From Spiribacter halobius (lineage in GTDB: Bacteria; Pseudomonadota; Gammaproteobacteria; Nitrococcales; Nitrococcaceae), in NCBI RefSeq assembly GCF_020883455.1, contig NZ_CP086615.1:62001-126000 (forward strand): 64,000 nucleotides of DNA, in the 5' to 3' direction. The position numbers and the translations under genes are program-made. This document shows, piece after piece, positions 5,002 through 52,480 of this stretch (position 1 is the stretch's first letter; each line of letters opens with the position of its first letter). Below the pieces are notes generated by a model. The model had not been told where the DNA came from and did not search any database. It was given only the letters and a program-made list of their open reading frames with translations.

Positions 5002-5115
5002 GGGCGAGGTGGGCGGTGACCCTTTTCGGGACACGCCGTGGATCCATCCCTGGAGGCTCCACTGCGGCATCCCTGCCGCAGAGGGTCCCGAAATGGGTCA
5101 CCACCCACCTCGCCC
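5002..5115 (+). repeat. Covarying hairpin repeat, copy 1
   Basis: First of seven copies in the window. Outer arms at about 5002-5032 and 5085-5115 are complementary with a few mismatches and enclose the family core (ACACGCCGTG... and an inner hairpin CTGCGGC/GCCGCAG around a TCCCT loop). It lies upstream of the KAS III-like gene and downstream of lpdA. No transposase is adjacent. Confidence 0.85.
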
Positions 5116-50201: not shown

Positions 50202-50428
50202 GAAGCGGCGGCCGGTAGGAGGCGTGCCTTCACGCGGAAATCGTCCTTGTCCCATTGCATGGCGCCCCGGTGATTCGCGGCGAGGGCGCCGCGTGTGCCG
50301 GTTTCACGGCCTCCTCGGCGACGCTCGACCGGCGGCGGGGTGATGCGCACCCGTCGCCAGCGAACGGTGCCGTCTACACTTGCGAGGGCGGGATACCCAC
50401 CTCACGAACATTCCTGGGAGGAACAACC

Positions 50429-51064
50429 ATGAGCTGGCAGAAGCAGACCGAGGAAATGATCTCCGGCTGGACGGCTACGCAGCGTCGCCTCTGGGACAAC
50501 TGGATGGAGGCGGTGAAGGGCGTCGCGCCTGGCGCCGAGCAGTGGCAGCAGGAGTACCACAAGCACCTGGACAACTGGGAGCAGGCGGTGCGGGAGGCGC
50601 TGTCCCGCCAGCAGGAGCTGGCCGGCTCGTGGCGCCTGCCAATGGCGGACGATGCCGCCGGCCGCGAGGCGGCCGAAGCGTGGATGACCCGTGCCCAGGA
50701 GATGATGCGCACCTGGACGGAGACCCAGATGAAGCTCTGGGAGGGCTGGGTCCAGAGCATGGGGCGCGTGGAGGGCGGCAAGCCCGACGCTGCCTGGGAG
50801 GAGCACGCCAAGCAGGTGATGAACGCCTGGCAGGAGGCGGCGAACCATGCCCAGCAGGCGCTGGCCGAGTGGAGCCAGAGCGTGGGCAGTGTCCCGCCAG
50901 GCGGCGGCAGTGGCGGCAGCGGCAGCGGTAGCAGCAGCGGTGGTGGTCAGAAGTCCAAGCGCAGCGGCGGCAGCCGCAGTGGCGGCTCGGGCCGCGGCGG
51001 CTCGGGCAGCGGCGGGAGTTCCGGCTCGGGCGGCAGCGGCGCCCGCTCCGGCAAGTCATCCTGA
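50429..51064 (+). CDS. Trp-rich helical protein with Gly/Ser-rich tail, phasin/PhaE-like
   Basis: A 211-residue soluble protein. The helical N-terminal 145 residues hold two copies of a 25-residue unit with regularly spaced Trp (EEMISGWTATQRRLWDNWME and QEMMRTWTETQMKLWEGWVQ) and a third degenerate one (WQEAANHAQQALAEWSQSV). Such W-x(n)-Q-x-x-LWxxW repeats recall PHA-granule proteins and the N-terminus of PhaE, but identity is not certain. Residues about 150-211 are almost pure Gly/Ser with Lys/Arg. GGGAGGAAC precedes ATG 50429, a strong ribosome site suggesting high expression. Monocistronic. A hexanucleotide repeat begins just after the stop. Confidence 0.7.
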   Translation: MSWQKQTEEMISGWTATQRRLWDNWMEAVKGVAPGAEQWQQEYHKHLDNWEQAVREALSRQQELAGSWRLPMADDAAGREAAEAWMTRAQEMMRTWTETQMKLWEGWVQSMGRVEGGKPDAAWEEHAKQVMNAWQEAANHAQQALAEWSQSVGSVPPGGGSGGSGSGSSSGGGQKSKRSGGSRSGGSGRGGSGSGGSSGSGGSGARSGKSS

Positions 51065-51070
51065 AGCCCC

Positions 51071-51130
51071 GAAGCCGAAGCCGAAGCCGAAGCCGAAGCC
51101 GAAGCCGGAGCCGGAGCCGGAGCCGGAGCT
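51071..51130. repeat. Hexanucleotide microsatellite (GAAGCC)6(GGAGCC)4
   Basis: Ten uninterrupted hexamers, six GAAGCC then four GGAGC(C/T), begin 7 bp after the stop of the Trp-rich protein. Slippage-prone; its position after a Gly/Ser repeat-coding tail suggests the whole 3' region evolves by slippage. Confidence 0.9.
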
Positions 51131-51330
51131 CGAAGCCGGAGCCCGGGCACCTGGCTCCGGCTTGGGCAGGCCGCCCATCGCCAGCCGTGACAGCGTCGCG
51201 GCGCTGCCCGGCAGCGCGCAAGCCAGGGACCGGATAAAAGAACCGATCCTGATTACGCATATTGCTCAGCCATAGTTGTCGGTCGCGTATCCGCGGTGCC
51301 GCGAGCGGGTTGGAGGCCGTGCCGGGGGTG

Positions 51331-51435
51331 ACGCGGGGCGGGAGCGTCCCGGACACGCCGTGAATCCGTCCCTGGAGGCTCGTAGGCGAGGTCCCTCTCG
51401 CCTACGGTCCCGGGCGCTCCCACCCCGCCCCGCAT
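51331..51435 (+). repeat. Covarying hairpin repeat, copy 6
   Basis: Core has the GTAGGCGA/TCGCCTAC inner stem and the TCC/GGA small stem; outer arms (GCGGGGCGGGAGCGTCCC and its partner near 51411-51435) pair with gaps, so this copy is the most decayed. Confidence 0.78.
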
Positions 51436-51519
51436 CGCAGACGTGGGTGGCGTCTTCCGCGACGGGAAGGCTGTCGGGAAACCCGTAGGTATGTTGGCGT
51501 CGGGGACGTAATCAGGAAT

Positions 51520-51550
51520 AAAAAAATGCCGGCCCTATCCCTGGGCCGGC
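51520..51550 (-). terminator. Intrinsic terminator of a minus-strand RNA
   Basis: On the minus strand an 8-bp G+C stem (GCCGGCCC/GGGCCGGC) with loop AGGGATA is followed by ATTTTTTT. No minus-strand gene ends here, so it must serve a non-coding transcript; the GGGA loop is itself a CsrA-type site. Confidence 0.85.
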
Positions 51551-51690
51551 TGATGGTCTTCCCGAGTGGAACGCGCGATACCGGCGCCCATATAGGGCGG
51601 GGGGCAGGGGCCGGTATCGTCTTACGAGGTTCCTGTTCTGGCCGGGTCGTCCCTGATCCGGCGCGGACGCTTTCCCGCGAACGCAACGCT
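51520..51690 (-). ncRNA. Candidate CsrA/RsmA-sequestering small RNA (CsrB/RsmZ type)
   Basis: A predicted RNA of about 170 nt. Six GGA motifs occur. One is presented in the hexaloop AGGGAC of an 8-bp hairpin (51641-51662, one mismatch); another is in the AGGGATA loop of the intrinsic terminator (51536-51542). A third is in GGGAAA closing a short stem (51671-51676), and ACAGGAACC is likely single-stranded. A longer stem CGATACCGG/CCGGTATCG (51576-51619) lies between. About 60-70 bp upstream is an 18-bp site matching the GacA/UvrY upstream element at 11 of 12 defined bases. No protein-coding frame with a ribosome site exists on this strand. Such RNAs bind and titrate CsrA. The 5' end is estimated, with TAGCGT at 51686-51691 as a possible -10. 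Confidence 0.6.
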
Positions 51691-51715
51691 AGTCTCTCAC
51701 CCTGATGTCGGTCTG

Positions 51716-51741
51716 GCTGTCGGCTACCGCCGACAGCTTTT
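51716..51741 (+). terminator. 9-bp perfect hairpin followed by TTTT upstream of dtd
   Basis: GCTGTCGGC-TACC-GCCGACAGC then TTTT. It could end plus-strand transcription before dtd, or be a dyad in the control region of the minus-strand RNA, whose promoter lies immediately beside it. Confidence 0.45.
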
Positions 51742-51758
51742 GTAGGAAATGGCTTACA
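51741..51758 (-). promoter_or_regulatory. GacA/UvrY-type upstream activating site
   Basis: Minus strand TGTAAGCCATTTCCTACA matches the consensus TGTAAG-N6-CTTACA at 11 of 12 positions, including both outer TGTAAG and TACA blocks. Placed about 60-70 bp upstream of the candidate sRNA start. A GacA-family regulator is not in this window. Confidence 0.6.
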
Positions 51759-51788
51759 CGCTCCAGGGCTCGAGGGACGGAGGTGGTC

Positions 51789-52238
51789 ATGATCGGACTG
51801 TTGCAGCGGGTCAGCGAGGCAAGCGTGCGTGTCGGCGGTGAGACCGTCGGCGCCATCGGCCCGGGGCTGCTGGTGCTGGTGGGGGTGCAGCGCGGTGACG
51901 ACGAGCGCGCCGCTGCACGGCTTCTGGAGCGCCTGCTCGGCTATCGGGTGTTTCCGGATGCGGCCGGGCGGATGAATCTCTCCCTGGCCGATACGGGGCA
52001 CGGGCTGCTGCTGGTGCCGCAGTTCACGCTGGCGGCGGACACCCGCAAGGGGACCCGCGCGAGCTTTACCCCGGCGGCCCCGCCGGCGGAGGCCGAGCGC
52101 CTCTTCACCGTGCTCGCCGAGCGCGCCCATGCCGCCCATGCCCCGGTGGCCGCGGGGCGCTTCGGCGCGGACATGCAGGTCAGCCTCGTCAACGACGGCC
52201 CGGTCACCTTCTGGCTCGAGGCCCCGCCGCGACCTTGA
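51789..52238 (+). CDS. dtd: D-aminoacyl-tRNA deacylase
   Basis: Hydrolyses D-amino acids mis-attached to tRNA. The 149 residues include the conserved [50 protein letters not shown] (containing the SQxTL-like catalytic segment in the form PQFTL) and the Gly-cisPro-like end [13 protein letters not shown] 51789 is used with ACGGAGGTGGTC upstream. The Ser of the usual SQFTL is Pro here, a substitution to note. Stands alone between the candidate sRNA region and the his operon. Confidence 0.94.
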
Positions 52239-52286
52239 TGGGTTGCCCAAAGGCGAACCTGTGGCGACTCGCCGGGCTTCGGGGTG

Positions 52287-52390
52287 TTCAACACAACGAC
52301 ACAACGAGCACAACGGTGCACAACGTCCAAGAGTGTCTGTCGCCAGCCTTCATCACGTTGTGCTCGTTGTGTCGTTGTGTCGTTGTGTTT
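52287..52390. repeat. Inverted repeat with CACAACGA-type tandem arms between dtd and hisB
   Basis: Left arm 52289-52315 (CAACACAACGACACAACGAG and following) and right arm 52354-52389 (CGTTGTGCTCGTTGTGTCG and following) are complementary. Related in design to 18189-18365, with ACAACG in place of ACAAAG. Confidence 0.8.
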
Positions 52391-52480
52391 ATCCAGCCGC
52401 CCAAGACGATAGGCACGTGACTCCCTGCGTCATGGGCTGCGTGCTATCCTCCGCGCGTCATTTGCCGGGACGGGGCCCGC

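Follow-up and report, generated by a model that had tools for sequence, protein, structure and literature searches.

A predicted GacA-driven, CsrA-sequestering RNA family encoded beside dtd in Spiribacter halobius and related bacteria

We found that the minus strand at about 51684-51519 of the window, by which we mean the whole 64,000-nucleotide stretch of DNA analysed here, very likely specifies a Csr/Rsm-type non-coding RNA that is driven by GacA and sequesters CsrA. The same RNA gene very probably recurs beside dtd in many related bacteria and belongs to no Rfam family tested. The best explanation of the comparative evidence is a new, Rfam-unlisted family of predicted GacA-driven, CsrA-sequestering RNAs that would work like CsrB and RsmZ. 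In the mechanism we propose, a stress-sensing two-component system would turn the RNA on: phosphorylated GacA/UvrY would bind two head-to-tail dyads, 23 bp apart and just upstream of the promoter, and this binding would switch on transcription of the minus-strand RNA. The RNA would display several GGA sites, some of them in hairpin loops including that of the terminator, and these sites would bind and sequester CsrA dimers, relieving CsrA control of mRNAs. We infer transcription, its start site, the binding of GacA and of CsrA, and the physiological effect from the features described below.

Elements of the locus

The proposed gene is divergent from dtd and convergent with an open reading frame on its other side. 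The features of the locus are as follows.

51741..51758, minus strand: box 1, a GacA/UvrY-type palindrome, TGTAAGCCATTTCCTACA, from a motif match
51718..51735, minus strand: box 2, a second dyad, TGTCGGCGGTAGCCGACA, starting 23 bp after the start of box 1
51691..51699, minus strand: putative extended -10 element, TGAGAGACT, at a fixed offset of 59 from the start of box 1
51519..51684, minus strand: proposed CsrA-sequestering small RNA of ~166 nt, with a predicted 5' end
51641..51662, minus strand: hairpin with AGGGAC in its loop, a candidate CsrA site, from folding
51663..51684, minus strand: hairpin with GGGAAA in its loop, a candidate CsrA site, from folding
51528..51550, minus strand: intrinsic terminator stem with an AGGGATA loop and T7 at 51520-51526; the stem covaries in relatives
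51789..52238, plus strand: dtd, D-aminoacyl-tRNA deacylase (TIGR00256), the divergent neighbour and synteny anchor
50255..51064, plus strand: open reading frame convergent with the RNA, with no Pfam or NCBIfam match in a profile search

A preliminary description, made from the window alone, had reported an 18-bp GacA-like site here. On recounting, box 1 indeed matched 11 of the 12 bases of TGTAAG-N6-CTTACA, and it was the sole match in the window at ≤2 mismatches, where 0.10 was expected and one or more turned up in 9 of 100 shuffles. Across the host genome (4,172,350 bases) there were two GacA sites with a single mismatch, box 1 being one of them. The palindrome as such is not enriched genome-wide, since it occurred at 15 places at ≤2 mismatches versus 19 for the reversed control pattern.

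The six GGA motifs previously counted downstream of the site were confirmed, although dinucleotide shuffling gave 4.9, so that the window count alone is weak; ANGGA occurred twice versus 0.9 expected. Local folding placed three of the six GGA inside hairpin loops, in keeping with the earlier figure of at least two. The AGGGAC hairpin proved real, but the clean 8-bp stem ascribed to it did not, as it consists of 7 pairs with a 1x1 mismatch. The intrinsic terminator with its run of seven T also held, and was the only terminator found within 51400-51850, where 0.3 were expected. Folded as a whole, the window RNA was no more stable than its shuffles (z = -0.92), and a sigma-70 consensus scan of the window locus returned no promoter. 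By itself, the window sequence is suggestive, not decisive.

The identity of the neighbouring dtd was borne out (TIGR00256, 165.2 bits versus a cut-off of 101.5). The frame at 50255-51064 had been called phasin-like, a label that found no backing in Pfam or NCBIfam at E ≤ 0.001. Directly after the stop of this frame lies a tandem repeat of CCGAAG/CCGGAG type (51068-51150), and a long imperfect inverted repeat of CAACGACACAACGAG type occupies ~52280-52395, between dtd and the next gene. We also observed a dispersed repeat at 51313-51410 (plus strand), with copies at 5038, 12173, 33071, 33348 and 63933; its core, GTGAATCCGTCCCTGGAGGCTCG, was found at six places in the window at ≤3 mismatches and in none of 100 shuffles. 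A match to Ysr224 beside the RNA (25.8 bits, gathering 70) coincides with this dispersed repeat and was rejected as a part of the RNA. The repeat element, which lies just past the RNA terminator, is flanked by a perfect 11-bp inverted repeat (TCCTGATTACG, 51247-51257 and 51507-51517), which would fit the insertion of a small mobile element.

Conservation of the arrangement, the promoter and the GGA loops

A DNA search of relatives gave little (7 of 59 genomes matched, the host's own not being counted apart, and besides the window there were only short weak pieces), so synteny with dtd was used instead. A dtd match was present in 22 of the 23 genomes of the host's family, and 500-700 bp upstream of it was read in all 22. 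The preliminary description had pointed to this region in relatives, and the GGA loops, the upstream site and the terminator are conserved there: in 7 of the 22 genomes (G000, which is the host's own, G002, G003, G004, G005, G007 and G009) a palindrome, a GGA-rich stretch and a terminator with a GGA loop lie divergent from dtd. The arrangement was absent upstream of dtd in the other 15, namely 13 genomes of group g2, which includes Spiribacter, and two of group g3, which includes Nitrococcus (G011, locus L020, and G013, locus L017); both of the latter retain dtd. Locus L017 also retains ACAAGAGTTGTCAG, which is 13 of 14 bases of the left box region of a relative (L027), before the sequences diverge, and this remnant looks like a possible deletion scar.

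Two models were built from the seven family sequences, R2 for the promoter (sequence only) and R1 for the 3' module. They matched side by side in 18 of the 54 genomes of the order, eleven of which were new in that they had not been used in model building. A strong R1 match was accompanied by a box 1 found by inspection in G024, G035, G037 and G053 (1, 1, 4 and 2 mismatches), and in G025 a strong R2 match was followed by GGAs and a terminator-like end. Model matches plus reading thus gave 23 of 54 order genomes carrying the RNA arrangement. In family f5, where the models score weakly, two of 12 genomes were read (G034 and G044, both outside the 23 of 54), and upstream of dtd each has a box 1, with 1 mismatch in G034 and 3 in G044, together with GGA-rich DNA and what looks by eye like a terminator carrying GGA in its loop. 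The weak matches L187, L210 (G032) and L216 (G013) were rejected on reading; weak R1 matches in G006, G010, G028, G031, G040, G042 and G048, and secondary weak ones in G004, G005, G037, G041, G042 and G053, lay outside those read.

Searching 80 named dtd loci with both models yielded 12 R2 rows and 21 R1 rows at E ≤ 1. Recognisable copies lay near dtd in three Ectothiorhodospira species (R1 E = 8.5e-4 to 0.2) and in a Natronospira MAG (R1 E = 1.1e-5), and a weak one, kept on reading, in an Escarpia tubeworm symbiont (L127, R1 E = 0.096). The E. mobilis copy, which is the same place as G373, is outside the order. Loci L099, L165, L130 and L132 coincide with genomes already included in the count, and L097, L100, L108, L119, L148, L154, L157, L159 and L161 were set aside without further reading. 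A third model, R3, searched against an even sample of 369 genomes of the class at E ≤ 1e-4, gave 14 matches, of which three were in the order and seven others, outside it, had box 1 (L240, L241, L242, L244, L245, L246 and L248). Among these seven, L242 and L244 coincide with L147 and L141; L241 and L245 are weak matches, and L245 has just 2 GGA. The remaining four (L247, L249, L250 and L251) were terminator-only matches and were rejected as RNA copies.

In 35 collected loci, the box corresponding to box 1 had 0-4 mismatches to TGTAAG-N6-CTTACA, with 0-2 in 28 of them and a perfect palindrome, TGTAAGAAAATTCTTACA, in G004. The first 45 bases of the seven family promoters align without gaps and contain a second dyad of the form TGTCGG-N6-CCGACA, which starts 23 bp past the start of box 1 and is separated from it by a 5-bp spacer. 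Neither this dyad nor the conserved segment near the 3' end of the relatives' RNAs, described below, featured in the preliminary description. Offsets 18 to 60 were each scanned in 28 sequences that had not been used to find the second dyad; these had been collected by 3'-end models without the promoter and include several near-duplicates. Scored as TGTCGG-N6-CCGACA/T, where the final A/T was allowed after inspection of the 28 sequences, the dyad averaged 8.75 of 12 at offset 23 and ≤5.2 at other offsets. Scores of at least 8 were reached by 20 of 28 sequences at offset 23 and by no more than 5 of 28 at any other offset; box 2 was weak or absent in eight (L203, L156, L124, L143, L127, L147, L241 and L245).

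Of the seven RNA loci in the 23 family genomes, all but that of G007 (2 mismatches) have the tandem dyad pattern at 0-1 mismatch. At ≤2 mismatches there were 27 rows in 16 of the 23 genomes versus 8 reversed-control matches, and weight was given to the 0-1-mismatch rows only. The one other place found at 0-1 mismatch was in the host genome, upstream of a histidine-kinase gene (C1:23367-23407, minus strand; L049 / L082). It contains the second one-mismatch GacA site of that genome (C1:23390-23407), likewise with tandem 23-bp dyad spacing, and lies ~260 bp upstream of the gene, whose product is LytS-like (PF06580); the dyads are followed by what reads as a long hairpin. We rejected a second RNA gene at this place in favour of a probable leader, since no T-run terminator was seen in the ~450 bp of transcribed strand read and the histidine-kinase gene follows downstream. 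The kinase is perhaps a direct GacA target.

Further downstream, 20 of the 35 loci share TGGCA: counted from the start of box 1, it sits at offset 59 in 19 loci and at offset 60 in the twentieth. At offset 59 the window reads TGAGAGACT. We read this element as a putative extended -10 (TGGCANNNT), a position that would place the window start near 51684 and give an RNA of ~166 nt. For csrB of E. coli, a UvrY study describes a partly conserved TGTAGGAGA lying 5 bp past the palindrome on its downstream side (PMC4682653), and box 2 starts at exactly the position of this partial motif.

Within the RNAs, aligned relatives show indels of various lengths between conserved blocks. GGA is enriched: 30 RNAs together contained 244 GGA (shuffled mean 148.5, maximum 174) and 138 ANGGA (shuffled mean 36.8, maximum 52; 300 dinucleotide shuffles), with near-duplicates (e.g. 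L193/L194, L143/L156, L246/L248 and L025/L027/L028) kept in these as in the dyad-offset, loop and 3'-segment counts. When 35 RNAs were folded with local pairs, 86 of 275 GGA (31%) and 56 of 158 ANGGA (35%) lay wholly within predicted hairpin loops, versus 12% for mononucleotide shuffles. Control triplets in loops numbered 6/164 for GGC, 3/84 for GGT, 7/182 for GCC, 23/185 for GGG, 10/93 for GAG and 5/54 for TCC; less clear controls were AGG, which overlaps GGA (42/206), and CGG (30/207). In 29 of the 35 RNAs a GGA lies inside the terminator loop or touches it, the exceptions being L163, L153, L141, L240, L241 and L245.

The terminator stem covaries. In alignment A4 (28 RNAs, with the near-duplicates L025 and L194 omitted), 94% of cells were paired, 22 cells were two-sided and the covariation score was 0.403, each above all 500 shuffles, for a structure derived from the same alignment. 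Weaker tests were the three pairs with two-sided change, a number reached by 128 of 500 shuffles, and the ten further pair types, reached by 27 of 500; slid by -3 in A4, the stem was still 67% paired with a score of 0.294.

Regulatory partners and known Csr/Rsm RNAs

CsrA was present in 21 of the 23 family genomes. The host genome has two CsrA-family genes, both over the PF02599 cut-off; the piece L001 scored 111.3 versus 73 with NCBIfam, and the piece L002 (50 aa) scored 70.7 versus 70.1 with TIGR00202 and 71.2 versus 73, hence below the cut-off, with NF002469. The host also has a GacA/UvrY orthologue (equivalog NF007018, UvrY/SirA/GacA, 292.4 bits versus a cut-off of 280), and the open frame after it reads to us as UvrC, the same order as in E. 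coli. With the GacS/BarA sensor domain PF09984 as the only test for the sensor, we found no match in the host and matches in 2 of the 23 family genomes (G007 and G009); the host may have a GacS with a sensor domain other than PF09984.

E. coli UvrY as query at E ≤ 1e-35 matched 9 of the 23 family genomes, with 51-59% identity in the seven that bear the RNA and 35-38% in G011 and G013. The latter values are like those of the second-best regulators of G003 and G007 (37-41% identity to E. coli UvrY), which are regarded as probable paralogues. Host GacA as query at E ≤ 1e-50 matched exactly the seven RNA-bearing family genomes. Over f1-f4 (42 genomes, compared without a tree and not phylogenetically independent), the RNA and a close GacA were both present in 22 genomes and both absent from 19, with the RNA only in one (G051, 82% complete) and GacA only in none. 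Family f5 was left out of this table, its RNA being mostly unread and the GacA of 10 of its 12 genomes more distant (49-53% identity); entered as RNA-negative, it changes the counts to 22 with both, 1 with the RNA only, 10 with GacA only and 21 with neither. At least three groups are without both the RNA and a close GacA, namely g2, G011 with G013, and G032 with G043 and G045, the dtd regions of these last three being outside those read. Conservation in relatives, the CsrA genes, the GacA orthologue and the agreement of RNA and GacA in 41 of 42 genomes (f1-f4) support the preliminary reading of the locus as a probable Csr/Rsm-type, CsrA-titrating RNA.

Computational predictions of CsrA-regulating RNAs have been made before, and Rfam holds Csr/Rsm families such as CsrB, CsrC, RsmX, RsmY, PrrB_RsmZ, RsmV, RsmW and similar. 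None of the 4227 families of Rfam 15 matched the window at gathering, and the search for CsrB, RsmY and RsmZ that had been suggested likewise returned no family at gathering score. When the threshold was lowered and the window region was scanned together with 6 relatives and another 16 loci, still no Csr/Rsm family reached gathering, the best scores in relatives being 20.2 bits for RsmY (gathering 57, in L201) and 14.7 for RsmV (gathering 100, in L033). A match to RsmW at 51381-51406 (14.5 bits, gathering 52) was rejected as being at chance level and outside the RNA. By membership, therefore, the RNA is not CsrB, RsmY or RsmZ.

In its organisation the predicted gene resembles enterobacterial CsrB/CsrC, which have an upstream GacA/UvrY palindrome, many GGA in loops and an intrinsic terminator. 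CsrB differs in having 22 GGA (PMC5027483), versus 6 in the ~166-nt window RNA, and it gave no match to the window RNA in the Rfam scans. The csrB palindrome is centred at -183/-182 (PMC4682653), whereas here both dyads lie near the proposed start. Pseudomonas RsmX/RsmY/RsmZ are alike in their small size, their several unpaired GGA and a palindromic upstream activating sequence, named as a potential GacA site (PMC2375449); RsmY, RsmV and RsmW differ in that their Rfam scores were all below gathering. Csr RNAs are also reported from outside the model genera, as with Pf1-Pf3 of Pseudoalteromonas fuliginea (PMC9927453, PMC11882849), which we liken by description. Among the matches listed, for which titles and abstract openings were covered and subscription papers mostly fell outside, no Csr RNA was described in Nitrococcus, Halorhodospira, Ectothiorhodospira or Thioalkalivibrio, Spiribacter and Aquisalimonas being outside the scope; one paper on the GacS sensor mentions Halorhodospira once (PMC5595915).

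The 3' segment and alternative readings

Most relatives carry ATCACCTYCAGC or a similar sequence between the last GGA and the terminator. Of 35 RNAs, 28 have CACCT in their final 90 nt (mean 3.3 and maximum 9 over 500 shuffles), and six have GATCACCTCC, which we take to be the 3' end of 16S rRNA. The ATCACC/CACCT segment is absent from the window RNA, and CACCT is also absent from L033, L207, L208, L124, L245 and L248. Control of decay is the likelier reading of this segment. We tentatively consider that it may be an RNase E entry site setting the lifetime of the RNA, as in CsrB, which is compatible with a CsrA-sequestering RNA. RNase E sites are usually only loosely defined, and the conserved sequence of the ATCACC segment is unlike such typical sites, as well as missing in the window RNA. 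In relatives the segment nevertheless occupies the place where RNase E enters E. coli CsrB: degradation of CsrB begins in the unstructured stretch that separates its last CsrA site from the terminator, and cleavage there is necessary (PMC5027483). A wider proposal, which we regard as doubtful, is a dual-role RNA family in which the GGA loops would take up CsrA and a GAUCACCUYC segment would pair with ribosome-binding sites or control decay; the paired-dyad GacA operator may then be ancestral, its second half persisting as a remnant in enterobacterial csrB, and the window organism would have lost the second job.

It is improbable that the palindromes are instead a GacA-controlled promoter of dtd or another gene, with the GGA-rich stretch an incidental leader or intergenic sequence. 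Box 1 is only ~30 bp upstream of dtd in the window, and the palindromes have no fixed direction, but the GGA-rich stretch and the terminator, with its covarying stem, are conserved on the other strand than dtd. In addition, the unit of box 1 plus RNA ends >1 kb from dtd in the Ectothiorhodospira loci L156, L143 and L147, and dtd is still present in the g3 genomes without the RNA (L017 and L020). We give even less credence to an RNA that acts mainly by base pairing of a ATCACCTCC-like segment with Shine-Dalgarno regions, the GGAs being secondary. Such a segment presumably resembles the 3' end of 16S rRNA, and the frequencies of CACCT and GATCACCTCC given above favour it; the segment is nevertheless missing, by the CACCT test, from the window RNA and the same six relatives, and GGA enrichment and loop placement are common to more RNAs than the pairing segment. 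Least credible of all is that the region encodes a small protein, or that GGA triplets and a terminator have come together by chance, since despite mechanical ORFs of 55-59 aa overlapping the RNA region and weak single-sequence statistics (6 GGA versus 4.9; z = -0.92), the relatives have indels of varied length, retained GGA loops and a covarying terminator stem.

Read as a GacA-driven, CsrA-sequestering RNA, the predicted gene could supply the RNA component that the Gac/Csr pathway has been lacking in a large group of gammaproteobacteria, comprising Nitrococcus, Aquisalimonas, Ectothiorhodospira and their relatives, and its place beside dtd gives a fixed genomic address at which Csr-type RNA genes may be found in relatives. 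Studies of how Csr RNAs are turned over gain a defined target in the conserved 3' segment of the relatives. The paired dyads suggest that GacA may often use two dyads 23 bp apart, and with this the partial, unexplained motif of csrB becomes a testable site.
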